Shown here one piece after another: positions 17,628-29,569 of a stretch of 64,000 nt of DNA. Position 1 is the first letter of the stretch. The number at the start of each line of letters is the position of its first letter. The stretch covers positions 6,944,001 through 7,008,000 of the forward strand of contig NZ_CP108046.1 of NCBI RefSeq assembly GCF_041435115.1, written 5' to 3'. Origin of the DNA: Streptomyces sp. NBC_00289 (lineage in GTDB: Bacteria; Actinomycetota; Actinomycetes; Streptomycetales; Streptomycetaceae). Made by a program: the position numbers and the translations under genes. The notes beneath the pieces are model-generated. The model saw only the letters and a list, made by a program, of their open reading frames with translations. It was not told where the DNA came from and did no database searches.

Positions 17628-17981
17628 GTGGGTAACCGGTATCAGGCCCTGTCCGGGGCCGTCGCTGTGACCCCGGCACTGAGCGTGTCGCCGCTCACCG
17701 GGCGGAGCGGTCTGCGGGTGGCCGGAGAGGTCGGCCTCGCGACACAGGTGATCTGGGAGCGCGCGCTGGAGCGGGCCGTGCGCGAGGACGAAGACGTGTA
17801 CCACTTGGAGTTGTCTGCCGTGACTTTCGTCGATGTCGCGGGCGCCGGTGCGCTCGCGGCCGCCGCTCAGCGGCTCGAGGACGGTCGGCGTATCGTGCTG
17901 AACCGGCCTCCGGCCACCCTGCAACGGGTACTGGAGATGTTCTGGCCCGAACTGGCGGCGATCGAGGTGTCGATGTCATGA
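17628..17981 (+). CDS. STAS-domain anti-sigma factor antagonist-like protein
   Basis: A 117-residue single-domain STAS protein. GTG 17628 is preceded by GGGGAG at suitable spacing. The fold is indicated by the strand GLRVAGEVGLATQVIWERAL, then VYHLELSAVTFVDVAGAGALAAAA, where the conserved loop that carries the phosphorylatable Ser in SpoIIAA-type antagonists reads VDVAGAGA: the usual D-S-S/T is replaced by D-V-A. Phosphoregulation at that site therefore looks lost. It overlaps the MEDS/ATPase gene by four bases (ATGA), so the two proteins are probably made in equal amounts and interact. Confidence 0.85.
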   Translation: MGNRYQALSGAVAVTPALSVSPLTGRSGLRVAGEVGLATQVIWERALERAVREDEDVYHLELSAVTFVDVAGAGALAAAAQRLEDGRRIVLNRPPATLQRVLEMFWPELAAIEVSMS

Positions 17982-18997
17982 GTGCCGCGGCGCACCCCTT
18001 CGAGGCCTTCGACTCCTCCGAGCCCGGCGTCCCGGGCGGCTCCGACCTGCCGAGCGACCCTGTCGAGCCGAGCGACTCCGCCGACCCCTTCCTCCATCCC
18101 GCCCTGTTCTACGAGGACGAGCGGGAGTACGTCGCCGGGACCGTCTCCTTCGTCCGGGCCGGCCTGGCGGCCGGCGACCCCGTGGCGGTGGCGGTGCCCG
18201 GGGAGAACCTCCGGCTCATCCAGGACGAGCTGGGCGACGCCGCCGACGGCGTGCGGTGGCTGGACATGCGGGAGGCCGGGCGCAACCCGGGCCGGATCAT
18301 CCCCGGGGTGCTGCGCGCCTTCGCCGACGCCCAGCCGGCCGGCCGCCGGGCGCGGATCATCGGCGAGCCGATCTGGGCCGGCCGGACGGAGACCGAGTAC
18401 CCGGCCTGCGTCCAGCACGAGGCCCTGATCAACGCGGCCTTCCGGGGCCGCACGGTCAGCATCCTGTGCCCCTACGACACCCGGCGCCTCGACCCCCGCG
18501 TGATCGCCGACGCCCACGCCACCCATCCCACCCTGGTCCTCTCCTCCGGGCTGGAGCAGGACAGCACCGCGTACGACCCCGCGGACGTCGTCGCCCGCTA
18601 CAACGAGCCGCTGCCGCCCGTGACGGACGCGCTGTCGTTGTCGTACGACGCGGAGTCGCTCTCGCGGGCCCGGCACATCGCCACCGACGAGGGCGCCCGG
18701 CTCGGGCTCGCGGGCACCCGGCTGCAGGACCTGACGCTGGTCACCGCGGAGCTGACCACCAACAGCGTGGTGCACGGCGGCGGTTCGGGCACGCTGCGGG
18801 TGTGGGCCGAGGACGGGTACGTGCTGTGCGAGGTGCGCGACAAGGGGCGGCTCGCCGATCTGCTCGCCGGGCGCCGGCCCCCCGCCCGTGACCAGCGGGG
18901 CGGCCGCGGGCTGCTCCTGGTCAACCTGGTGACCGACCTGGTGCGCGTGCACACGGACGAGGACGGCACCACCGTGAGGTGCTGGTTCGCCCGCTGA
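17978..18997 (+). CDS. MEDS sensory domain plus HATPase anti-sigma-type regulatory protein
   Basis: A 339-residue protein. After a 37-residue acidic Ser/Pro-rich start, residues 40-200 match the MEDS (DcmR-like) sensory domain: HPALFYEDEREYVAGTVSFVRAGLAAGDPVAV is its opening, and WAGRTETEYPACVQHEALIN and LCPYDTRRLD are conserved blocks. Residues 210-339 are an HATPase_c domain of the SpoIIAB/RsbW type, with LTLVTAELTTNSVVHGG (N box) and RGGRGLLLVNLVTDLV (G2). There is no HisKA domain, so it is not a conventional histidine kinase. The STAS partner encoded just upstream suggests a partner-switching module controlling a sigma factor. Confidence 0.88.
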   Translation: MSAAAHPFEAFDSSEPGVPGGSDLPSDPVEPSDSADPFLHPALFYEDEREYVAGTVSFVRAGLAAGDPVAVAVPGENLRLIQDELGDAADGVRWLDMREAGRNPGRIIPGVLRAFADAQPAGRRARIIGEPIWAGRTETEYPACVQHEALINAAFRGRTVSILCPYDTRRLDPRVIADAHATHPTLVLSSGLEQDSTAYDPADVVARYNEPLPPVTDALSLSYDAESLSRARHIATDEGARLGLAGTRLQDLTLVTAELTTNSVVHGGGSGTLRVWAEDGYVLCEVRDKGRLADLLAGRRPPARDQRGGRGLLLVNLVTDLVRVHTDEDGTTVRCWFAR

Positions 18998-19053: not shown

Positions 19054-20091
19054 TCAGGTGGACAGCGGGGTCAGTACCAGGGGCTCGATCCTGCCCTCCA
19101 GCATGGCGCCCAGGCCCTGCACGGCGCACACGTCGGGCCGTTCGGCGATGTGCACCGGCATGCCGGTGGCGTGCCGCAGCATCTGGTCGAGGCCGGGGAG
19201 CAGGGCGCTGCCGCCGACCATCATGATCCCGCGGTCGGCGAGGTCGGCCACCAGGTCGGGCGGGCAGTCCCGCAGCACTCTGCCGATGCCGTCGAGTACG
19301 GCGGTCAGCGGGGTCTCGATGGCGTCGCGGACGGCGGCGGTGTCGACCCGCACCGAACGGGCGAGGCCGGTGGCCACGTCCCGCCCGTGGATCTCCGTGG
19401 AGGCGGGGCCCAGCGGGGTGAGCCCGTTGCCGGAGAGGGCGAGTTGCAGCGGCCGTACGGACTGGCTGGGCAGCATCAGTTCGTGTTCGTGGCGCAGGTG
19501 CTGCACGATCGCGTGGTCGACGGCCTCGCCGCCGACGGGGATGCGTTCGGCGGTCACGATGGACCCGAGGGACAGGACGGCGACCTGGGTCGCGGCAGCC
19601 CCGCACACCATGATCATGGTGGCCTCGGGGCGCTCGACGGGCAGTCCGCAGCCGACGGCGGCGGCGATCAGGGTGTCGACGAGCTCGACCCGGCGCGCTC
19701 CGAGTCCGACGAGCGTCTCGATCGCGGCGCGCTGGGCCAGCGGGTCGGCGTCGTGCGGGGTGCAGGCGGCCGCCCGCAGCCGGGGCTTGCGGCGCAGCGA
19801 GCGGCGGATCTTGTCGCCGAGCAGGTGGCGCAGCATGCGCTGCGCCATCTCGATGTCGACGACCGTGCCGCCGGAGACGGGCCTCACCACGCGGATGTAG
19901 TGGGGCGTGCGCCCGGTCATCTTCTCGGCGAACTCGCCCACCGCGATCAGCGCGCCGGTACGGGTGTTCACGGCGGCGGCCGACGGCTGGTCGACGACGA
20001 GCCCGGCGCCCTTCACGTACACCCGTGTCCTCGCCGCTCCCAGGTCGACGGCGAAGTGGCAGCGGCGCAGCTGTTCCAGACTGGCGGTCAT
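19054..20091 (-). CDS. mbl: MreB/Mbl-family actin-like protein
   Basis: A 345-residue actin-fold protein. The first phosphate-binding loop reads AVDLGAARTRVYVKGAG, with DLGA in place of the usual DLGT, and the second is MIMVCGAAATQVAVLSLG, where the usual D-I-G-G-G-T is replaced by VCGAAAT. The adenosine motif IMMVGGSALLPGLDQML is close to normal. VVRPVSGGTVVDIEMAQRML is a recognisable MreB block. The altered phosphate loops suggest weak or absent ATP hydrolysis. Streptomyces carry a short Mbl involved in spore-wall assembly; the gene order here, with matB and a SAV_2336-type gene, fits that gene as I recall it. It lies 162 bases downstream of the SAV_2336-type gene on the same strand. Confidence 0.83.
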   Translation of the reverse strand: MTASLEQLRRCHFAVDLGAARTRVYVKGAGLVVDQPSAAAVNTRTGALIAVGEFAEKMTGRTPHYIRVVRPVSGGTVVDIEMAQRMLRHLLGDKIRRSLRRKPRLRAAACTPHDADPLAQRAAIETLVGLGARRVELVDTLIAAAVGCGLPVERPEATMIMVCGAAATQVAVLSLGSIVTAERIPVGGEAVDHAIVQHLRHEHELMLPSQSVRPLQLALSGNGLTPLGPASTEIHGRDVATGLARSVRVDTAAVRDAIETPLTAVLDGIGRVLRDCPPDLVADLADRGIMMVGGSALLPGLDQMLRHATGMPVHIAERPDVCAVQGLGAMLEGRIEPLVLTPLST

Positions 20092-20253: not shown

Positions 20254-23200
20254 TCAAAGGGAACGGGCGGCTTCGAGCAGCGGAGCCAGCGAGGGGACCG
20301 TGACCTCGCAGCCGGCCTCGCGCAGGCGCTGGTCGATGGTGGGATTGCGGGCGAGGCCGATGAAGTGCACGCCGAGCTGCTGGGCGGCGGTGAGTTCGGC
20401 GACCGTGGAGCCGATCAGTACACCCGTCGGCGCCGGCACGCCGGGCGAACGCAGGGCGCGCAGCAGGCAGTCGGGGTGGGGCATCAGCAGTTCCAGGTTC
20501 TCGCTGCGGGCGTGGATGCCGTCCAGCGGGAGCCGGTAGGGCTCCAGATAGCGTTGTACGGCCTGTTCGCAGACGTCCGTGACCACGGCGACCCGGCGCC
20601 CGGAGTGGTGCAGCGTGCGGACGAGGGCGATGGAGTTGTGGGTCGTGGGCGCGTCCGGGACGGCCGTCAGTTCCAGTTGGTCGAGGCGATCCCGCAGGAG
20701 GGGCGCGAGGTCGTCGTGGGCGAAGGCGCGGAGCACCTCCAGCGGGTGCACGAACACCTCACGCCCCGTCGGCCCGTCCTTCGAGGCCCGGTGTTCGGCG
20801 GCGACGGCGAGCAGGTCGAGGGCGGCCTCGCGTGCGGCGTGGGCCGAGAACAGGCGGGTGACGGGCCCGTCGAAGCCGAGCAGCACGGCCTCGGCGTCGG
20901 CGAGGAGGTCCGACGGCGGGCGCGGTGAGGGAGCCGACCGCTGCGGCGCCGGTGGCGGTGCCCCCTCCGTGGTCAGCTGGACCGCGTAGGTCACCGACAG
21001 GCCCGGTACCGGCCATTTGCCCAGCCCCGCGTTCACCGACCGCTGGGCCGCGCCCGCGCGGCGCAGCGGATGGCGGCGGGTGATGCGCGCGGCCGCCTCC
21101 AGCAGATGGTCGAGCAGCCGCTCGGAGACCCGGGTGGTCTCGCTCCGGACGAAGGCGACCGGATCGTCCACGTGCCAGGACAGCTCGACCGCGGCGGCGA
21201 AGGCGCCCTTGCCGGAACTCGGCAGGGACACGCTGTGGAAGGCCTGGTGGGTGGTGAGGTCGACCTCGTAGTACGTGGTCGGCCGCGGCGGCCGGATGCC
21301 GTGCGGCTGGGCGGGGTTGAGCAGCGTGAGCGGGCCGTCGGGCTGGGTGTGGACGATGGCGGTGCGGCCGGGTGCGGGGATGCCCAGGGCGCCGAGATCG
21401 TGACTGATGTAGGGACCCCGCACCAGGTCCCGTTCCTCGGCGTCCGGGCCGGAGTCCGACAGCGGGCAGTACCAGGCGACCGGCGGGCCGTCCGGCGCGT
21501 CGTGGTGCAGCGGCTGGAAGCGCGGCGAGGCGAGGGCGGCGGAACTGGCGGCGAACTCCTCGTACCAGGCGGGGGAGACGACCACCACGACGTCGGCGGC
21601 CGACCGCTCCCGCACCGCGAGCACCTCCGGCGGTACGGCGGGGTCCTCCGTGTCGTCGGCGAACAGCGGCGTGTGCCAGAACGTCACCCGGAACCGCGGC
21701 GGGTCCGGCAGCCCGGCCAGGGCCTCGACGAGCCCCCGCATGACCGCCACCAGCACGGGCAGGACGTAGGCGCCGGGCTCGGCGAGCACGACGTAGCCGT
21801 TGTCGCGGACGTGGATCTCGCGGGGGGTGAGGGCGGCCCGGTCGAGGATCTGGTGCACCGCGTATTCGAGGGTGATCCGGGCCTCGGGACGGCCGGTGAG
21901 GTCGTCGGCCTCGAAGACGACGACCGGGCGCAGCTGCCCGGCCGGGGCGGGCCGGGGGGCGGGCGGTCCTCCCTCGCGTGCGAGGGCGTGCAGACGGCGG
22001 AAGTCCTCGCGGTCCGGATACTCCTGGACCAGGCCGGTCAGGTCCGCCGCCGCCTGCTCGAACCGGCGCAGTTCCAGGTCGAGTTCGGCGCGGGTGGCGC
22101 AGAGGGAGAGACGGAGCCGGAGCAGCCGGGTGCGGGCGGTGTCCGCGGCCGGACCGGGGACGCCGTCGAGGGCAGGCCCGCGCCAGAGGCCGAGGGCCTC
22201 GCCCACGTGGGCGCGGGCGGCCTCGGTGTTCCCCGCGGCGCGCTCCGCCTCGGCCCGCTCGGCGAGTTGCCGGCAGTGCGGTACGTCCACGAAGTCCGCG
22301 CTGGTGTGCAGGGCGTAGCCGTCGGGAAGGGCGGCCAGGACACCGGGGCCCAGGGCGTTGCGCAGCCGGGACGCGTAGGTGCCCAGGAGGCCGGCGGATC
22401 GGTCCGGGGCCGCCGCCGCCCGGCCCCAGATCCCCTCGGTGAGCTCCGCACGCGTCACCGTGCGGCCGTGCCGCAGCAGGAGCATGCACAGCATGGCCTG
22501 TTCCTGCGGGGAGCCGGTGGCGACGGGGTGGCCGGTGCCCCGGCTGACGGAGGGCGGGCCGAGGAGGGTGTAGCGGAGCGGGGTGTGGGCGGATCGGGCC
22601 AGGGAGAGGGGGCCGGGATCGCGCAGGTCGTGCAGGTTCTGCTGGAGCTGATCGGCGGGGTCCGGGGACATCAACCGGTTGAGGATCCTCGCGTACGGGT
22701 TCCGCAGGCCGGCCGGAAGGGCGATGAGCCGGTCGGCGGTGACGCGCAGCCCGGACTTGGCCGGCACGCCCGACGCCAGGTGGAAGAGCAGCCCGCCGAG
22801 CGCCCGGAGATCGTCCCCCGGCCCGGCCCGCTCGTCTCCGAGGTCGAAGAGGGTCAGCTTGACCGTTCCGTCGGGCAGCAGCATCACGCGGGGCATGCCG
22901 AGGCCGCCGTGCGGGACGCCGGCCTCGTGCATGGCCTCCAGACCGCTCGCGAGCTGCGCGCCCAGCGACACCAGAAGCGGCGCCGGAAGCCGGTAACCAC
23001 CGGTGGACGCGAGAGAGTTGAGGGGGATGCCGTCGAGGTGCTCCATGACGAGGTACCGGGTGTCGTCCTCGACTCCGTAGTCGTGGACGGCCACCACGTT
23101 CGGGTGGTCGAGGGCTGCCAGGGCCTCGGCGGCCCGGAGGAAGGCCCGGCGGCGCTCGGGGGTGCTCGGCGCGAGGTGGAGCCGTACCGCCACTGGCTCC

Positions 23201-24963
23201 CCCCGCTCGACGTCCTCGGCCCGCCACAGGGAACTGCTGCCGCCGCGCTGTTCCCCCAGCCGATAGCGGTCACGAAGCGCCGGACGCCGGTCCGGTGACT
23301 CCGGTGACTCCGGTGACTCCGGTGACTCCGGCGAGTCCGAAGAATCCGGGGAATCCTGGGAATCCAGCGAGTCCGGTGACGGACCCCCCAGCCGTTGTAC
23401 GCTCTCCGGCCGAACCGTGGCGAACGCCTCGTCCGGCGTCCCTGTCTCCGTGCCGGACGCCGACGGGGTCGAGGCCCGGAACTCGCCGCGGGCCCGCCCG
23501 GCCCGGGTGTCGATCAACCCGCCCACCCGGTCGAGGAGTTCGGTGGTGCGGCTGCGGGCGGTGCGGGGCAGGCCGCGCAGCAGCAGGTCCCGTACGCCGG
23601 GCCGGAACGCGTAGGAGCCGGCCGGTCCGGGGACGCTGGTGAGCATGCCGCTGAGGATCACCTCGGCCAGGTGCCGGGGACGCGGGTCCGGCTCCAGGGC
23701 GGCGTGGACCAGACGCATGACCGGCAGGTCGGGGCGGCCCACCGCGAGGTGCCCGGCGAGGCGGAACGCCTCCGGGGAGGCGGTCGCGCGGAACCGGAGC
23801 ACCAGTTCCTCGGCGGACAGCCGGCCTATGTCGGTGCGCTCGTCGGAGGCGGCGGGCGGACGGCCCAACAGGGCGACGGCGGACGGGAAGCCGCTGCCCC
23901 CGGGCGCCGCGAGCAGTGCGGCCCAGTTCGCCAGCCACCGCGGCCCCGGCTCCAGCACGGGAAGCGGGACCCGGCCTTCGGACCCGGCCTCCCGCTCGGC
24001 CAGGACGTCCCGCTCGTACGGCTCGAACGTGAGCGCCGCCGACGGAGCCGCCGGGTGAGGCGCCGTCAGCCGGCCCGGTGTCGTCGGCAGAGCGGTGTCC
24101 CGCCACAGGTGCTCGGGGAGCGGCTGTACGACGGCCAGGGGCATCCGGCGTGCCCAGCGGCGCAGGGTGTCGTACCAGAGGGTGCCCGCGGGACCCTCCC
24201 GCCACTGCGGGCCCATGCAGTCGCTGACCAGGAGGGTGACGGTACGGCCGTCGGCGGGGCTGTGCGCGCCCTGGCCGCGGACCGTGCCGTCGGGGCAGGC
24301 CCGGTACGGGGTCACCGTGCGGAAGACGCCCGACTGGGCCAGGGCGGTGTGCAGTTCGTGGATCAGGGGGCGCCAGACGGGCATCGTGGGCCCGTCGTCG
24401 TACACCAGGTTGAGGCGCAGCCAGCGCTCCCGCGCGGGACGCATGACCGGCAGCCACCACTCGGGGGCGGCGCCGAGGCGGGCGATGCGGTCGGCGGTGG
24501 CACGTTCGTCCAGTTCGTGGCCCTGGGGTGCGTCGACGCGGCGCTTGAGCGGACGCAGGGAACGTTGCAGCCCCAGGGGGTGGCGCAGCATCGGGGGCGC
24601 GGGGGCGAGCAGGGAGGTGTGGGGCCGGGCCGTGGCGTCGGGGGGCCGCTGGGCGGGCAGGTGCAGCGGGGCGCGGGGCGGCCGGGGCGGCGGGTCGTGC
24701 GGCTGCCCGGGCGGGGGTGTGGACCGGGCGTCGGCGGGCGGGGGCGGCGGCTGTTCGGCGGCTTCGGGCGGTCGTACGTCCTCGGGGCGGGGGTCCGGGG
24801 CGGGCGGCGCCGCGGGGTCGGCCGCCGGGGACTCCATGTGGCGGGCCAGCCACAGGAGTTCGGCGAGTTCCAGCGGGGTGGGGCGGACGCCCGAGCCCGC
24901 CTCGGCCAGGACCTGGGCGAGGCGGATCAGGGCTTCCGGGGAGCCGGGCCGCTCAGAAGGCAT
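20254..24963 (-). CDS. SAV_2336-type multidomain protein: vWA-like, pseudokinase, AfsR/BTAD-like and pseudo-HAD domains
   Basis: A 1,569-residue cytoplasmic protein. Residues 1-43 are the short helical SAV_2336 N-terminus, and 45-130 are Pro-rich. About 175-300 is vWA-like: the metal-site equivalent reads NLVYDDGPTMP and a later strand TLLVSDCMG. Residues 530-558 are an SPE/SPD repeat. Residues 565-770 are a protein-kinase fold with catalytic losses: VAVR (Arg594) replaces the ATP-binding Lys, the HRD loop is PHGGLGMPR (Gly687 for Asp), while DLG remains. Residues 795-1000 are a winged helix plus BTAD region as in AfsR/SARP proteins. Residues 1010-1330 match no fold I recognise. Residues 1352-1567 are HAD-like, but motif I is LLGFDGPV with Gly for the nucleophile Asp, and the GDS motif is GST. 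The gene overlaps the MoxR gene by 11 bases. Confidence 0.82.
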   Translation of the reverse strand: MPSERPGSPEALIRLAQVLAEAGSGVRPTPLELAELLWLARHMESPAADPAAPPAPDPRPEDVRPPEAAEQPPPPPADARSTPPPGQPHDPPPRPPRAPLHLPAQRPPDATARPHTSLLAPAPPMLRHPLGLQRSLRPLKRRVDAPQGHELDERATADRIARLGAAPEWWLPVMRPARERWLRLNLVYDDGPTMPVWRPLIHELHTALAQSGVFRTVTPYRACPDGTVRGQGAHSPADGRTVTLLVSDCMGPQWREGPAGTLWYDTLRRWARRMPLAVVQPLPEHLWRDTALPTTPGRLTAPHPAAPSAALTFEPYERDVLAEREAGSEGRVPLPVLEPGPRWLANWAALLAAPGGSGFPSAVALLGRPPAASDERTDIGRLSAEELVLRFRATASPEAFRLAGHLAVGRPDLPVMRLVHAALEPDPRPRHLAEVILSGMLTSVPGPAGSYAFRPGVRDLLLRGLPRTARSRTTELLDRVGGLIDTRAGRARGEFRASTPSASGTETGTPDEAFATVRPESVQRLGGPSPDSLDSQDSPDSSDSPESPESPESPESPDRRPALRDRYRLGEQRGGSSSLWRAEDVERGEPVAVRLHLAPSTPERRRAFLRAAEALAALDHPNVVAVHDYGVEDDTRYLVMEHLDGIPLNSLASTGGYRLPAPLLVSLGAQLASGLEAMHEAGVPHGGLGMPRVMLLPDGTVKLTLFDLGDERAGPGDDLRALGGLLFHLASGVPAKSGLRVTADRLIALPAGLRNPYARILNRLMSPDPADQLQQNLHDLRDPGPLSLARSAHTPLRYTLLGPPSVSRGTGHPVATGSPQEQAMLCMLLLRHGRTVTRAELTEGIWGRAAAAPDRSAGLLGTYASRLRNALGPGVLAALPDGYALHTSADFVDVPHCRQLAERAEAERAAGNTEAARAHVGEALGLWRGPALDGVPGPAADTARTRLLRLRLSLCATRAELDLELRRFEQAAADLTGLVQEYPDREDFRRLHALAREGGPPAPRPAPAGQLRPVVVFEADDLTGRPEARITLEYAVHQILDRAALTPREIHVRDNGYVVLAEPGAYVLPVLVAVMRGLVEALAGLPDPPRFRVTFWHTPLFADDTEDPAVPPEVLAVRERSAADVVVVVSPAWYEEFAASSAALASPRFQPLHHDAPDGPPVAWYCPLSDSGPDAEERDLVRGPYISHDLGALGIPAPGRTAIVHTQPDGPLTLLNPAQPHGIRPPRPTTYYEVDLTTHQAFHSVSLPSSGKGAFAAAVELSWHVDDPVAFVRSETTRVSERLLDHLLEAAARITRRHPLRRAGAAQRSVNAGLGKWPVPGLSVTYAVQLTTEGAPPPAPQRSAPSPRPPSDLLADAEAVLLGFDGPVTRLFSAHAAREAALDLLAVAAEHRASKDGPTGREVFVHPLEVLRAFAHDDLAPLLRDRLDQLELTAVPDAPTTHNSIALVRTLHHSGRRVAVVTDVCEQAVQRYLEPYRLPLDGIHARSENLELLMPHPDCLLRALRSPGVPAPTGVLIGSTVAELTAAQQLGVHFIGLARNPTIDQRLREAGCEVTVPSLAPLLEAARSL
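23292..23381. repeat. Ten 9-bp in-frame tandem repeats coding for SPE/SPD
   Basis: Ten consecutive 9-base units follow each other from 23292, the first four identical (CCGGTGACT), the rest degenerate. Being a multiple of three, they expand or shrink the Ser-Pro-acidic linker between the N-terminal module and the kinase-like domain of the SAV_2336-type protein without breaking the frame. Confidence 0.9.
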
Positions 24964-25972
24964 CGGCCTGCGGGGTCTCGCCCAGGTACGGCATCAGTTG
25001 TTCCGCCAGCTCGTCGAGGGACTCGGTGCCGAGGTCGGAGGAACGGGCCAGGTAGATCGCGTTGAGGAGCTGGTCGGTGGCCAGGTCGCCGCCGCCCACC
25101 CGGGACAGGAAGCGGGTGATCAGGGTCTGCGCGTAGGCGTCGGGCTCCTCGTCGAAGTGGGCGCGGACGATGGCGGCGAGGTGGCCGTCCTCGGGCTGCC
25201 GCAGGCGCAGGGTGACACAGCGGCGCAGGAAGGCGGGCGGGAACTCGCGCTCGCCGTTGCTGGTGAGGACGACGAACGGGAAGGCACGGCAGCGGACCCG
25301 GCCGCCGGCCACCGGGACCCGCTCGTCGGCGCCGTCGATCATCACCTCCGCCGTGGGGGTGCGGCGAGCGGTGCGGACCAGCTCCGGGATCTCGTACTGG
25401 CCCTCCTCCAGGACGTTGAGGAGGTCGTTCGGCAGGTCCAGGTCGCTCTTGTCGATCTCGTCGATGAGCAGGGCACGGGGACGGGCGTAGGGCAGGAGGG
25501 CGGTGCCCAGGGGGCCCAGCCGCAGATGGTCCTCGATGCCGGTCTCGGGGGTGCCGTCGGCGGTGCGCGCGGGGCTCTGGCGTGCCGCGTACAGCCGGGA
25601 CAGCGGGTCGTACTGGTAGAGGCCGTCGTGCAGGGTGCTGCGGCTGGTGACGTTCCAGCGCAGCACCGGGCCGAGGCGCAGCTCGCGGGCGACGGCGTAG
25701 ACCAGCGAGGACTTCCCGGTGCCGGGCGGGCCCGTCACCAGCAGCGGGCGGCGCAGGTAGAGCGCCGCGTTGACGAGCTGGACGGTCTGCGGTGTGGCCC
25801 GGTACGTCTCGGCGCGGTGGGTGCGGTCGGGTGAGGTGGCGGCGCCGTCGCCGTCCTGCGGCAGGCCGAGCACCGGGGTGCCCTCGAAGGCACGCCAGGG
25901 CGGAGGCGGGGGCAGCCGGCTGATGCCGTCGTGCGGCTCGCTGGTGCCGGTGTAGACGGGCCACAAGGGCAT
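24953..25972 (-). CDS. MoxR-type AAA+ ATPase
   Basis: A 339-residue AAA+ ATPase with GGAGAG before ATG 25972. After a 60-residue lead, Walker A is LLVTGPPGTGKSSL (about 81-88), Walker B is LLIDEIDKSD (about 168-175), sensor 1 is FVVLTSNGE (about 235-241), and FLRRC carries the arginine finger. The remaining 90 residues form the lid domain. MoxR ATPases act as chaperones for vWA-domain proteins, remodelling them by ATP hydrolysis. Here the vWA-like partner is presumably the N-terminal region of the overlapping downstream SAV_2336-type protein, and the upstream gene encodes the trypsin-VMAP-C protein. This supports a ternary vWA-MoxR-VMAP module. Confidence 0.92.
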   Translation of the reverse strand: MPLWPVYTGTSEPHDGISRLPPPPPWRAFEGTPVLGLPQDGDGAATSPDRTHRAETYRATPQTVQLVNAALYLRRPLLVTGPPGTGKSSLVYAVARELRLGPVLRWNVTSRSTLHDGLYQYDPLSRLYAARQSPARTADGTPETGIEDHLRLGPLGTALLPYARPRALLIDEIDKSDLDLPNDLLNVLEEGQYEIPELVRTARRTPTAEVMIDGADERVPVAGGRVRCRAFPFVVLTSNGEREFPPAFLRRCVTLRLRQPEDGHLAAIVRAHFDEEPDAYAQTLITRFLSRVGGGDLATDQLLNAIYLARSSDLGTESLDELAEQLMPYLGETPQADAF

Positions 25973-26005
25973 GGATCTTCTCTCCGTGGGGGCGGTCGGC
26001 TCGGC

Positions 26006-27670
26006 TCAGGCGACGGGTGAGTGGAGGCTGGCGGCGGGCTCCGGGAAACAGCGCGGGTCGTCCCACAGGAGCTGGAGGTCCTTCGCCCAGTGCCGGTCGG
26101 GTTCGTCGTCGGCCGCCGCGGTCTCCCGCAACGCCATGACGTGGCGCGGTAGTTCGGTGGGCGGGACGCCGGTGAGGGAGCCGGCGAGCTCGTCGAGGAA
26201 CGTGGTGCCGGAGCAGGGGCCGCCGTGCCGGTCGGTGTCGGGGCAGCCGGTGCGCGGCCACAGCAGGACCGGCACCGGGGTGTTGAGGCCGACCTCGAAG
26301 TGCGGCTGGGCGGTGGCGGGCGGGAAGGCGAAACCCGCCAGGTCGGCGTCGTCGTCGCGCAGCCGCTTGCGCAGGCTCGGCGGCCGCTCCGGGACGCCGC
26401 AGTCGACGCGGTGCAGCCGCGCCCCGGGACAGGTGTCCAGCTTCTGCCACTTCTTGGCCAGCTGGTGGCGCAGCCGGCCGCTGCGGTGCCGGGAGCGGTC
26501 CACGACGACGAGCGGATAGGCGCAGCCCAGCGGGGTGGAGTCGTCGACACCGCACTCCCAGTGCGCCACCGGTTCGTTCAGCCAGTCGCGGGGCAGCACG
26601 AACGTGATCAACTCGTCGGCGTCCGGCGCGAGCTGGGTGAACGCCTCGTCGATGCGCTCCTGGACGTACGTCCGTACGGCGCCGCGCGGCAGGCGGTGCG
26701 AGCCGACCCGGCGCCGCTGCCCGTCGCGGTACGCGGACACCTCGACGGTGACCTGGTCGGCACCGGCGCCGCTGTGGTCGAGCTCGACCAGGATCGGGGA
26801 CCAGGAAGCGGCGGCGGGCGGCACCGGCCCCGCGTCCAGCGCCTCCCGGAGCCGGTCGGCGAACCGGGTCACCGCCTCACCCTCCGGAACCTCCCACTGC
26901 ACGTACCCGGCCGCCGCCCCGAGCGAGGCGAAGCCGCCCTCCGGCAGCGGCGGTCCGAAAGGGCCCACGGCGTCGACGTACAGCCGGTTCGGATCGCAGT
27001 CCGCCCCCTCGGCCACCGCCCGGCGCACCAGCGTGTAGAGCCGGCGCACCGCGTCCGGACCGTGGTCGGGCGTGGGGACCAGGGCGCCCAGCTCGGGCCA
27101 GTGGCGGGCCATGACCTGGGTGGGCAGCATCCGGCCGACCCGGCCGTCCCGCGTGCCCGCGATCGTCGTCACCATGCCGACCACCCTGCCGTCCGCGAGG
27201 GCGACCGCCGCGCCGCTGAACCCCGGTGCCAGGGCCTGTCCGTGGGCCGTGGCGGCCTCCAGCTGTCGCCACTCGTCCGAGACCAGCGCGCCGGGCACGG
27301 CCTGGTACCGGGCGAGCATGCCCTCGTCGTAGCCCTGGGGAAAGCCGTACGCGACCAGGGTGGGCGCGGGTTCGCCGAGCTCGGCGCCGGGTGGCGCGAA
27401 CGTGGCCGGTTCCAGGGGGACTTCGTGGTCCAGTTCGAGGACGGCCAGGTCGCCGGGGTCGGCCGCGTCGCCCGACCAGCCGCCGTGCACGGCGACGGTG
27501 GCGGACAGCGGGCCGAGCTCCCGGTGGTTCGGGAACGTCACCGTCACCGCCGACGTGTCGCTCCACCGGACGACGTGGGCGCAGGTGAGGACTCGGTGCG
27601 CGGAGATCAGGAAGCCCGCACCGACCTCGTTCCCGCAGACGATCCGGGCGTGCCAGGCTGCGTCGCTCAT
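26006..27670 (-). CDS. Trypsin-like serine protease fused to a VMAP-C-type domain
   Basis: A 554-residue protein without signal peptide, so cytoplasmic. Residues 1-185 are a trypsin-like domain with a complete triad: His32 in VLTCAHVV, Asp74 in GDLAVLEL and Ser152 in APGFSGAAV. The middle part is poorly conserved to my eye. The last 250 residues match the VMAP-C region of vWA-MoxR-associated proteins: ITFVLPRDWLNEPVAHW, LGCAYPLVVVDRSRH, a Trp/Lys segment KKWQKLD, and near the end LQLLWDDPRCFPEP. In such systems the protease is a candidate effector or self-activating switch. It overlaps the Trypco1 gene by four bases and precedes the MoxR gene by 33. Confidence 0.87.
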   Translation of the reverse strand: MSDAAWHARIVCGNEVGAGFLISAHRVLTCAHVVRWSDTSAVTVTFPNHRELGPLSATVAVHGGWSGDAADPGDLAVLELDHEVPLEPATFAPPGAELGEPAPTLVAYGFPQGYDEGMLARYQAVPGALVSDEWRQLEAATAHGQALAPGFSGAAVALADGRVVGMVTTIAGTRDGRVGRMLPTQVMARHWPELGALVPTPDHGPDAVRRLYTLVRRAVAEGADCDPNRLYVDAVGPFGPPLPEGGFASLGAAAGYVQWEVPEGEAVTRFADRLREALDAGPVPPAAASWSPILVELDHSGAGADQVTVEVSAYRDGQRRRVGSHRLPRGAVRTYVQERIDEAFTQLAPDADELITFVLPRDWLNEPVAHWECGVDDSTPLGCAYPLVVVDRSRHRSGRLRHQLAKKWQKLDTCPGARLHRVDCGVPERPPSLRKRLRDDDADLAGFAFPPATAQPHFEVGLNTPVPVLLWPRTGCPDTDRHGGPCSGTTFLDELAGSLTGVPPTELPRHVMALRETAAADDEPDRHWAKDLQLLWDDPRCFPEPAASLHSPVA

Positions 27671-28017
27671 GACGGGCCGGCGGCCTCCGGCTCCGCCGTG
27701 GCGCGTCCCGGTGACCAGCTGAGCTTCACCACCAGATGGCCTTCCGCCGAACCTTTCGCGATGACCGCCCCGGCCTCCGCGCTCAGCTTCACGCCGAACT
27801 CCAGCTCCACGGAGTCCGGCTGGAGCGCGCCGTCCCGGAAGACGCGCAGCGCCGACTCGGCCGCCGCCCGGACGCCGTCCAGCGCACCCTCGAAGGTGCG
27901 CGTCGCCTGGAGGGGCGCGTCGCCGCGCGACACCATGCGGGCGCCGGGCTCCTCGTCGACGCCCTCCACGACGACCAGCGCGCCGTCCTCCGTCTTGAAC
28001 TGCGTTAACCCGTCCAT
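27667..28017 (-). CDS. Trypco1 (CU044_2847) family protein
   Basis: A 116-residue protein. ATG 28017 is chosen because GGGGGAG lies upstream and homologous sequence begins there. The signature is a single beta-rich domain, opening with GALVVVEGVDE and ending VELEFGVKLSAEAGAVIAKG followed by HLVVKLSW, which I recognise as the trypsin-co-occurring domain 1 found beside trypsin-like genes. It ends with a Pro/Ala/Glu tail. The four-base ATGA overlap with the protease gene fits a protein that binds or restrains the protease. It is the first gene of the cassette; a TAACAAT element near 28075 may be its -10 box. Confidence 0.83.
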   Translation of the reverse strand: MDGLTQFKTEDGALVVVEGVDEEPGARMVSRGDAPLQATRTFEGALDGVRAAAESALRVFRDGALQPDSVELEFGVKLSAEAGAVIAKGSAEGHLVVKLSWSPGRATAEPEAAGPS

Positions 28018-28201
28018 GAACCGGTTGCTCCCCCGTGCGGTTGACCAGTGCCGGGTGACTCCGGCGACCTCCATTGTTACGGACGGTGCTGGGTGGTGTC
28101 CCGGGTTCGCGCCCGCGGACCGTCCTGGGCCCGCGTGCCCGGGCCTCTCGGCCGGGCGGAAACCGGCCACCCCGCGTGGCGCTCGCGCACCCGGGTCCGT
28201 C

Positions 28202-29569
28202 TCACCCCACGTCACCGGTCATGACGCCCCGGATCACGCCCAGTTCCACCAGGTCCTGCGGACGGATGTGCAGGTGGTCCGCGGTCGCCTCCACCTCGTT
28301 GGGCGGCCGCTTGAGGATCGCGGCCGCCAGCTCGGGGGCGATGACGGAGAAGTAACTGTCGGATGTGGCCCAGGTGTTGCCCGGCGCCGCGAGGGCGAGG
28401 GCGCCGCCCGAGCCGCCCTCGCCGATCACCAGGGTGGTGACCGGTGTGCGTGCCGCCGCCACCGCGCCGAACAGGTCCGCGATCGCGGCGCCCGCACCCT
28501 GCCGCTCGGCCTCCGCGTCGTTGGCCGCGCCCGGGGTGTCCACCAGGGTCAGCACCGGGATGCCGAGCCGGTCCGCGAGGCGGATCAGCCGGGCGGCGGT
28601 GCGGTAGCCGGCGGGCCGGGTGGCGGACCCCGTCTGGGCGGCGTACGCGACGGTCCGCCCCTCGTGCTCGCCGAAACCGCAGAGCATCCCGGCGTCGGTG
28701 CCGCCGCACCGGTCGCCGTCGATCGCCTCCCGGTGGGTGAAGTAGGCGTCCAGGTACCGCTCGGCCCGCGGCCGCATGGAGGAGCGGGCACGCTGGACGG
28801 CCTCCCATCCGGTGGCGGGGAGGCCGGTGCCCGCGGTCGCTTCGCTCACCCCGGCGCCGAGTGCGGCCGGGGGCGGGGCCGGGGTGCGGGAGGGGGACGC
28901 CAGCAGCCGTAGCCAACGCCCCAGCGTCTTCCGGAGGTTCTCCGGCCGTACGACGGCGTCGGCCGCCCCCGCCGCCACCTGCGCCTCCGCCGTGTACGCG
29001 GCCGGGTCCGCGTCCGGCGGCCGGACCCGGGAACCCGCGAAGCCGACCTGGGCGCCGGGCAGGGCGAGGACGACGTCGGCGCCCGCGCCGAGTGTGGCCC
29101 AGCCGCCGCCCGTCGTCGGGTCGCGCAGCACCGCGAGCTGCGGGAGACCGGCCTCCCGGGTGAGGACGGACTGCCGTGCCACCCGCTGGAGCTGGGTGAG
29201 GGCCAGCATGCCCTCCTGCATCCGGCTGCCGCCGGTGGCGACCAACGGGACGACGGGCAGGCGGTGTTCACGGGCGTGGGTGTACGCCGCCTCCAGTCGG
29301 TCGCCGGTGCGTTCGCCGAGGGAGCCGCCCAGGAAGCCGAACTCGAAGGCGATCAGTACGGCCCGGGTGCCCCCGACGTCCGCCGTGCCGCAGACGACGG
29401 ACTCCGTCTCGCCGGTGCGCCCGGCCGCGCGGGTGCGGGAGGCGTCGTAGCCCGGCCAGGAGAGCGGGCCGTCGGGCCCGGAGTCCCGTGCGGGGTACGG
29501 GAGTTCGGCGAAGGTCGAGTCGTCGGTGACGAGGGCGAGGATCTCGCGGGCGGAGTGGCGGTCAGTCAT
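28202..29569 (-). CDS. Fused acetyl-CoA carboxylase-type carboxyltransferase (beta-alpha)
   Basis: A 455-residue protein with both carboxyltransferase halves in one chain. The beta-like half (about 60-215) has FEFGFLGGSLGERTG and the acyl-CoA cradle ATGGSRMQEGMLAL; the alpha-like half (about 265-450) has AYAAQTGSATRPAGYRTAARLIRLADRL, then VDTPGAANDAEAERQG and VIGEGGSGGALALAA. The zinc ribbon of AccD is missing. It should transfer carboxyl groups from biotin to acetyl-CoA or a related acyl-CoA, provided that a biotinylated subunit is encoded elsewhere. The gene overlaps matB by eight bases, so both are in one operon that can produce malonyl-CoA by two routes. Confidence 0.88.
   Translation of the reverse strand: MTDRHSAREILALVTDDSTFAELPYPARDSGPDGPLSWPGYDASRTRAAGRTGETESVVCGTADVGGTRAVLIAFEFGFLGGSLGERTGDRLEAAYTHAREHRLPVVPLVATGGSRMQEGMLALTQLQRVARQSVLTREAGLPQLAVLRDPTTGGGWATLGAGADVVLALPGAQVGFAGSRVRPPDADPAAYTAEAQVAAGAADAVVRPENLRKTLGRWLRLLASPSRTPAPPPAALGAGVSEATAGTGLPATGWEAVQRARSSMRPRAERYLDAYFTHREAIDGDRCGGTDAGMLCGFGEHEGRTVAYAAQTGSATRPAGYRTAARLIRLADRLGIPVLTLVDTPGAANDAEAERQGAGAAIADLFGAVAAARTPVTTLVIGEGGSGGALALAAPGNTWATSDSYFSVIAPELAAAILKRPPNEVEATADHLHIRPQDLVELGVIRGVMTGDVG

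Follow-up and report, generated by a model that had tools for sequence, protein, structure and literature searches.

A cassette of four genes on the reverse strand of a 64,000-nucleotide stretch of Streptomyces sp. NBC_00289 DNA (contig NZ_CP108046.1, positions 6,944,001 to 7,008,000; this whole stretch is the window, and coordinates below are its own) matches the published description of the VMAP-ternary, or classical MoxR-vWA-VMAP, systems (Kaur et al. 2020, eLife, PMC7159879) in most of the features examined, as far as the passages of that paper compared here extend. The class is already described and the cassette is a well-formed member of it, not a new kind; what its relatives add is a usual slot, repeated loss of the cassette there, the swapping of inactive-enzyme tails and a conserved upstream element of the cassette's own. 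A preliminary description of this DNA had called it a predicted conflict system, a label that is supported, and in the parts of the literature consulted the published work on the class stops at prediction too; our literature searches on VMAP systems found no report of an experimental test. The placing of all four proteins in the cytoplasm by that description is plausible.

The four reading frames are real and run from 28017 to 20254 on the minus strand, in the order that the preliminary description gave. T1 (27667–28017, −), the first gene, encodes a Trypco1 protein of 116 aa (Pfam Trypco1, e-value 6.9e-28; NCBIfam CU044_2847, 8.7e-24), T2 (26006–27670, −; 554 aa) joins a trypsin-like peptidase to a helical middle and a VMAP-C domain (Pfam Trypsin_2, 1e-13), T3 (24953–25972, −; 339 aa) is a MoxR-type AAA+ ATPase (AAA_5, 4.9e-9) and T4 (20254–24963, −; 1569 aa) is a multidomain protein of the SAV_2336 type (NCBIfam SAV_2336_NTERM, 4.7e-134). 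The overlaps reported earlier, of 4 nt between T1 and T2 (27667–27670) and of 11 nt between T3 and T4 (24953–24963), follow from the frame coordinates, and T2 and T3 are spaced by a 33-nt gap with no overlap. The longest T1 frame opens at a GTG at 28215; the start at 28017 is favoured (M1 in at least 90% of a 37-row alignment), with support that is partly circular, the starts of the relatives having been picked close to where the start in the window predicts them.

Residues were counted over the window and up to 118 relatives, a set that holds near-duplicate rows and, for some genomes, entries from both surveys. In the trypsin domain of T2 (27101–27655, −) the claimed full triad is intact and conserved across 119 rows, with Ser152 kept in every one, His32 in 116 (three gaps) and Asp74 in 117 (two gaps). 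The VMAP-C domain (residues 305–539; 26054–26758, −) is matched over the full length of its Pfam model (1–226 of 226) at 4.3e-47, with 161 bits against a cut-off of 27. An AlphaFold2 model of T2 (mean predicted local distance difference test score 86.6, predicted template modelling score 0.51) has a peptidase part resembling the structures of Rv3671c, DegS and DegP in a Foldseek search; the best 50 matches in the PDB library are all protease structures, and the best 50 in the viral library are protease-type, polyprotein or unnamed proteins, with a few others. The Pfam VMAP-M model found no match in T2, though the structure model is helical at residues 184–279. T3 keeps its Walker A lysine in 117 of 118 rows and the Walker B Asp-Glu pair and both arginines of the LRRCV motif in all 118, and its sensor 1 is likewise conserved. 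Its N-terminus carries the VMAP-type motifs WxhapG and PsWRxa in the forms WPVYTG and PPWRAF, at positions where the commonest residue occupies 115–118 of the 118 rows; a bpMoxR match, at 6.4e-5, lies under that model's cut-off.

T4 goes beyond what was first described and is an array of modules: a vWA-like domain, its C-terminal extension, a pseudokinase, a winged helix-turn-helix (wHTH), a BTAD domain, two modules and a HAD-like domain. The vWA-like domain (approximately residues 180–354; 23902–24426, −) is a putative assignment made on two invariant aspartates and on middling fold matches: Asp189 and Asp248 are present in 105 of 105 rows, each just after a strand in the model (these count as strands 1 and 4 only if the fold is vWA), and the motif reads DxGxT, not DxSxS. 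No Pfam vWA model matched any of the four proteins, the region had no sequence match in PDB at E ≤ 1 and its model no Foldseek match at E ≤ 0.001. A structural second look placed the MDN1 MIDAS domain and NorD among middling matches, below the reliable range of the tool. An ExxExxW motif was noted by eye at residues 32–38, with a spacing that differs from the printed [D/E]xxx[D/E]xxxa. In the second structural look the C-terminal extension of the vWA region (residues 376–500; 23464–23838, −) is similar to the winged-helix region found in STAND NTPases such as MalT and CED-4, a resemblance to be read knowing that helical parts match easily by chance.

Two enzyme domains of the tail are inactive. 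The pseudokinase (residues 560–720; 22804–23286, −; Pfam kinase, 6.7e-11) has lost its catalytic residues, the HRD aspartate surviving in 2 of 87 rows and the lysine of VAIK in 3, and a glycine precedes the HRD-Asp position in 84 of the 87. The degenerate HAD-like domain (approximately residues 1361–1569; 20257–20883, −) matches HAD_2 below the cut-off (0.0048) and HAD structures by profile (best 2.6e-9), and neither the motif III lysine nor the motif IV aspartate occurs in any of 81 rows. The kinase and HAD motifs bear their customary names, and the alignment columns were placed on the window's sequence by us. By these counts the protease and the ATPase are kept, and the kinase and HAD enzymes of the tail are not. 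Between these two domains lie an OmpR-type wHTH with BTAD (residues 801–1000; 21964–22563, −; BTAD 3.9e-20; Trans_reg_C 9.2e-6, which at 26.1 bits is just under its cut-off of 26.2) and the two modules without a domain match (residues 1010–1195 and 1205–1345; 20929–21936, −). A cyclase and Band-7 identity was considered for the latter and is unconfirmed, as none of 16 members matched such a model over residues 1010–1345; a search with this region gave 360 matches, the named ones among the 120 listed being mostly of the SAV_2336 type. As cyclase, Band-7 and HAD form a recurrent series in the sections of PMC7159879 consulted, the two modules probably correspond to the first two. A literature search on SAV_2336 found no paper.

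The preliminary description had recognised in MoxR, a vWA-like protein and VMAP-C a known ternary arrangement, and this fits the VMAP-ternary description in the passages of PMC7159879 compared: the gene order VMAP, MoxR, vWA is the same, as are the VMAP-C domain, the N-terminal motifs of MoxR, the trypsin carried on the VMAP protein, the neighbouring Trypco1 and the long vWA protein with inactive kinase, wHTH and HAD-type modules. The cassette differs in that the VMAP-M model has no match in its T2 and in that its T4 has a BTAD, a term absent from the main text of that paper; the slot, the scars and the 17-bp element described below are likewise not mentioned in the passages compared. The DGR-linked VMAP systems of Thiohalocapsa (Dore et al. 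2024, PNAS, PMC10907252, consulted in part) share a vWA protein with a variable C-terminus beside MoxR and trypsin-VMAP, and name Trypco1 among the adapters, as here, whereas variability is generated there by reverse transcriptase and here by module exchange. Closer by, two loci of the same genome (L084 and L085, near 5.54 and 5.80 Mb) share VMAP-C and a SAV_2336-type partner, but have EAD2 and VMAP-M0 in place of trypsin and an NB-ARC/TPR tail in place of pseudo-enzymes, and are without the 17-bp element at up to four mismatches. NorQD and Midasin, too, couple a MoxR-type AAA+ protein to a vWA partner, as here, and to our knowledge neither has a protease or a swapped tail. NorQD serves in cofactor insertion into nitric oxide reductase (PMC9976466, seen in part) and Midasin has a role in ribosome assembly (PMC7159879, in the sections consulted).

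The four genes keep together in relatives. Among the best 80 of 140 confirmed named loci matching T2, Trypco1 and MoxR are each present at 79 and SAV_2336 at 68, in agreement with the claim that they form one set; 11 of the 12 loci that lack SAV_2336 break off close to the cassette, L177 being the exception. The usual slot is between an accA-like gene and an MreB-family gene that we take to be mbl (19054–20091, −; same strand, 162 nt 3′ of T4; a literature search on SCO2451 gave no paper), the accA-like gene being found at 71 and the mbl-like gene at 66 of these 80 loci. In a second set of 38 cassette loci the accA-like gene was not found in seven (L079, L090, L092, L101, L102, L103 and L105), four of which are also without mbl; copies outside the slot therefore exist. 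T2 has matches at E ≤ 1e-30 in 84 of 392 congeners; a VMAP-C gene is present in 125 of 150 sampled congeners, and 137 of 150 have an mbl-like gene (E ≤ 1e-140), 24 of these genes being at 66–80% identity and perhaps other paralogues.

Cassette-less genomes show loss in place. From genomes in which T2 has no match at E ≤ 1e-30 we took 40 mbl loci, ranked roughly by mbl identity; 23 have the accA-like gene upstream on the same strand, and the other 17, two of which are contig ends, were left out of the slot counts. Ten of the 23 slots have an accA–mbl gap of less than 400 nt with no cassette trace, and eight retain a piece of the cassette: Trypco1 at L107, L108, L118 and L215, pieces of T2 at L116 and L215, and pieces of the T4 tail at L111, L119 and L208. 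The fragments in eight of 23 empty slots show repeated loss of the cassette in place. When presence is mapped on a tree of the flanking proteins (30 loci with and 22 without the cassette, a non-random sample), 16 changes are required, where shuffled labels require 17.0 ± 1.8, and 196 of 500 shuffles need 16 or fewer, so that in this sample no phylogenetic signal is left for presence. Two further kinds of gene were seen in the slot. A subtilase (S8) gene for approximately 1200–1400 aa, on the strand opposite to the cassette, separates the accA-like gene from Trypco1 or mbl in all four loci scanned, two with the cassette and two without (L134:5717–9391, L176:5507–9148, L118:3734–7351 and L111:7292–11539), and a cytokinin-dehydrogenase-like FAD enzyme (L107:10041–11558) lies between the leftover Trypco1 and mbl.

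Within the cassette, the core (T1 to T3 with the vWA part of T4) co-evolves, and the modules of the tail, among them the dead kinase and the dead HAD, are swapped independently of it. In a set of 108 rows including the window, non-redundant at 3% T2 distance and with 47–107 rows per comparison, pairwise distances correlate at 0.91 for T2 and vWA, 0.90 for T3 and vWA and 0.81 for T2 and T3, and the values for the tail are lower (0.49 for vWA and HAD, 0.43 for vWA and the module labelled B7). Median distances are about 0.445 for T2, 0.31 for T1, 0.32 for vWA and about 0.24 for T3, and among the flanking genes 0.18 for the accA-like gene, 0.17 for the ligase and 0.11 for mbl. Core and flank correlate at 0.24 (T2 and mbl) and 0.44 (T2 and accA-like); this comparison was rejected as a test of vertical inheritance because the flanks correlate equally poorly with each other (0.22 for mbl and ligase, 0.36 for mbl and accA-like). 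Identities to the window, with duplicates of the same genome kept, show the exchange directly: the window HAD is nearest to that of L200 (81%), though the T2 of L200 is only 55% identical, while at L127 T2 is 84% but HAD 43% identical. Eighteen loci have T2 at 54–56% and HAD above 65%, and 27 have T2 at 61–84% and HAD below 45%. The 68 T4 proteins fall into ten segment architectures, as scored by similarity to the window's own modules, a measure to which foreign modules are invisible.

A 17-bp conserved element (28071–28087, −) lies 53 nt before the Trypco1 start and is a candidate promoter or operator with, to judge from its distribution, practically one target. Of 80 upstream regions, 71 have it at up to four mismatches, 52 of them with no more than two, and nine are without it. 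At up to three mismatches it is found in four of the 40 cassette-less loci, always within the slot, at L107, L108 and L118 with their leftover Trypco1 and at L119 with its leftover T4 tail. Across 150 genomes there are 15 copies at up to one mismatch, against one for the reversed control; by coordinates 12 of these are at the cassette or its remains and three elsewhere, and the window's genome has a single copy with fewer than two mismatches. At three mismatches the count is 45 against 16 for the control, an excess that is hard to interpret. We considered the wHTH of T4 itself as the protein that binds the element and rejected this, the element being present also at L183, where the wHTH segment of T4 was not found. 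A scan for sigma-70 promoters and terminators found none.

The reading that we prefer, with a little less than even confidence, sees here a trypsin-armed VMAP-ternary system, in which the tail is bait, MoxR and vWA form a latch and trypsin executes, its function being a prediction. Trypco1 would be made first and bind the protease as inhibitor or adaptor; that it is the first gene is borne out by gene order, and this with the 4-nt overlap with T2 fits a partner of the protease, the inhibitor role proposed earlier being plausible from co-occurrence. VMAP-C would dock the protease onto the MoxR ring, and the vWA part of T4 would bind a peptide of the protease–MoxR complex as a latch. The dead-enzyme tail may mimic host proteins (a kinase, a SARP/AfsR-type regulator, a phosphatase-like HAD) as bait for an invader's factors; contact with it would be relayed through vWA to MoxR, whose ATP hydrolysis would rearrange the complex and free the trypsin, which would then cut T4, host proteins or both and stop the hypha. 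A constant, active trypsin beside a changing T4 tail with two dead enzymes fits a tail that senses or serves as bait, and execution by trypsin. The direction of signalling would follow Dore et al. (PMC10907252, in the parts consulted), where the variable part of the vWA protein senses and the VMAP effector acts, rather than the first version of Kaur et al. (PMC7159879, likewise), where VMAP senses and the tail is released as effector. A bolder and rather doubtful extension makes the T4 tail a swappable bait array whose inactive look-alikes of the host's own signalling proteins (kinase, SARP-type regulator, HAD and the two modules) guard the genuine ones. Exchange of modules in the one chromosomal slot would alter what is recognised, execution being left to an invariant trypsin; the vWA extension would be a STAND-type winged-helix lever as in MalT and CED-4, and the one-site regulatory element would belong to the cassette alone. 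If true, this would be the logic of a guarded-decoy immune receptor in a filamentous bacterium.

Several observations weigh against a bait-triggered defence system. The conflict role is predicted from sequence, with neither an experiment nor a phage link behind it, what points to a role for T1 is its co-occurrence with T2, and the fold match that would make the latch a vWA falls short of the tool's reliable range. The dead modules could be scaffolds, not bait, and the modules at residues 1010–1345 may be active. None of the neighbours identified is a defence gene, all of them being lipid, regulatory or cell-shape genes; PADLOC matched kinase, AAA and protease stretches only, with no match for Trypco1, and on plasmid records we found partial protease matches on three (33% of the query). 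Our own division of the core tree into three classes, which takes two changes on that tree, follows the flank tree fairly well, with 10 changes there against 25.4 when shuffled (minimum 19), so that, if the flank tree is right, the classes were mostly inherited with several replacements. This is closer to the behaviour of a resident locus than to that of a mobile defence unit.

The opposite direction of signalling, in which a variable middle of VMAP senses the invader, MoxR and vWA rearrange and trypsin cuts T4 to release C-terminal effectors or dominant negatives, is possible but unlikely here: it is the direction stated for the class in PMC7159879 and summarised in PMC10907252 (both seen in part), the tail is modular, T2 is the fastest-evolving core protein (median distance about 0.445, that of MoxR being about 0.237) and dead modules suit a dominant-negative role as well as bait, yet without a VMAP-M match no variable sensor region is evident in T2, and with both tested tail enzymes, kinase and HAD, inactive a released catalytic effector is less likely. 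A second alternative is a regulator of growth or cell wall that resides at the slot, a chaperone-protease module tuning the mbl-like gene or spore envelope synthesis and unrelated to conflict. The recurrent position directly 5′ of mbl on the same strand (mbl-like at 66 and accA-like at 71 of 80 loci) and the failure to find a near-complete copy on plasmid records speak for it; we nevertheless think it improbable, since mbl is in 137 of 150 congeners and T2 only in 84 of 392, cassette-less slots keep mbl, and the loci without the accA-like gene (seven of 38, four also without mbl) show that the pairing is not obligatory. Least probable of the three is hyphal self/non-self recognition, an allelic incompatibility slot whose divergent core classes and exchangeable tails would kill mismatched neighbours or fusion partners. 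Three divergent core classes at one slot, near-identical flanks with different classes (at L083 and L091 mbl is 97% and T2 45% identical) and fast turnover of presence and absence are in keeping with it, but turnover and divergence are equally expected under an arms race with phages, and no delivery or contact component of the cassette came up in our domain scans, beyond which no dedicated search was made. VMAP-ternary systems occur widely among multicellular bacteria, and the preferred bait-and-trypsin reading can be set against release of the tail in this one: the cassette is compact and chromosomal, and its natural empty slots, mutable catalytic residue, exchangeable tails and defined upstream element mean that it can separate a tail that acts as effector from one that acts as sensor. 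These evolutionary and regulatory details make it a good test case.

The remaining neighbours frame the cassette on both sides. On its 5′ side the accA/accD-like carboxyltransferase gene is followed by an AMP-ligase gene and then by a MerR-PP2C gene. On its 3′ side the MreB-family gene (19054–20091, −) may share a transcript with the cassette in cassette-bearing species, and a gene for a MEDS sensor protein with a HATPase domain (17978–18997, +) is convergent to it.

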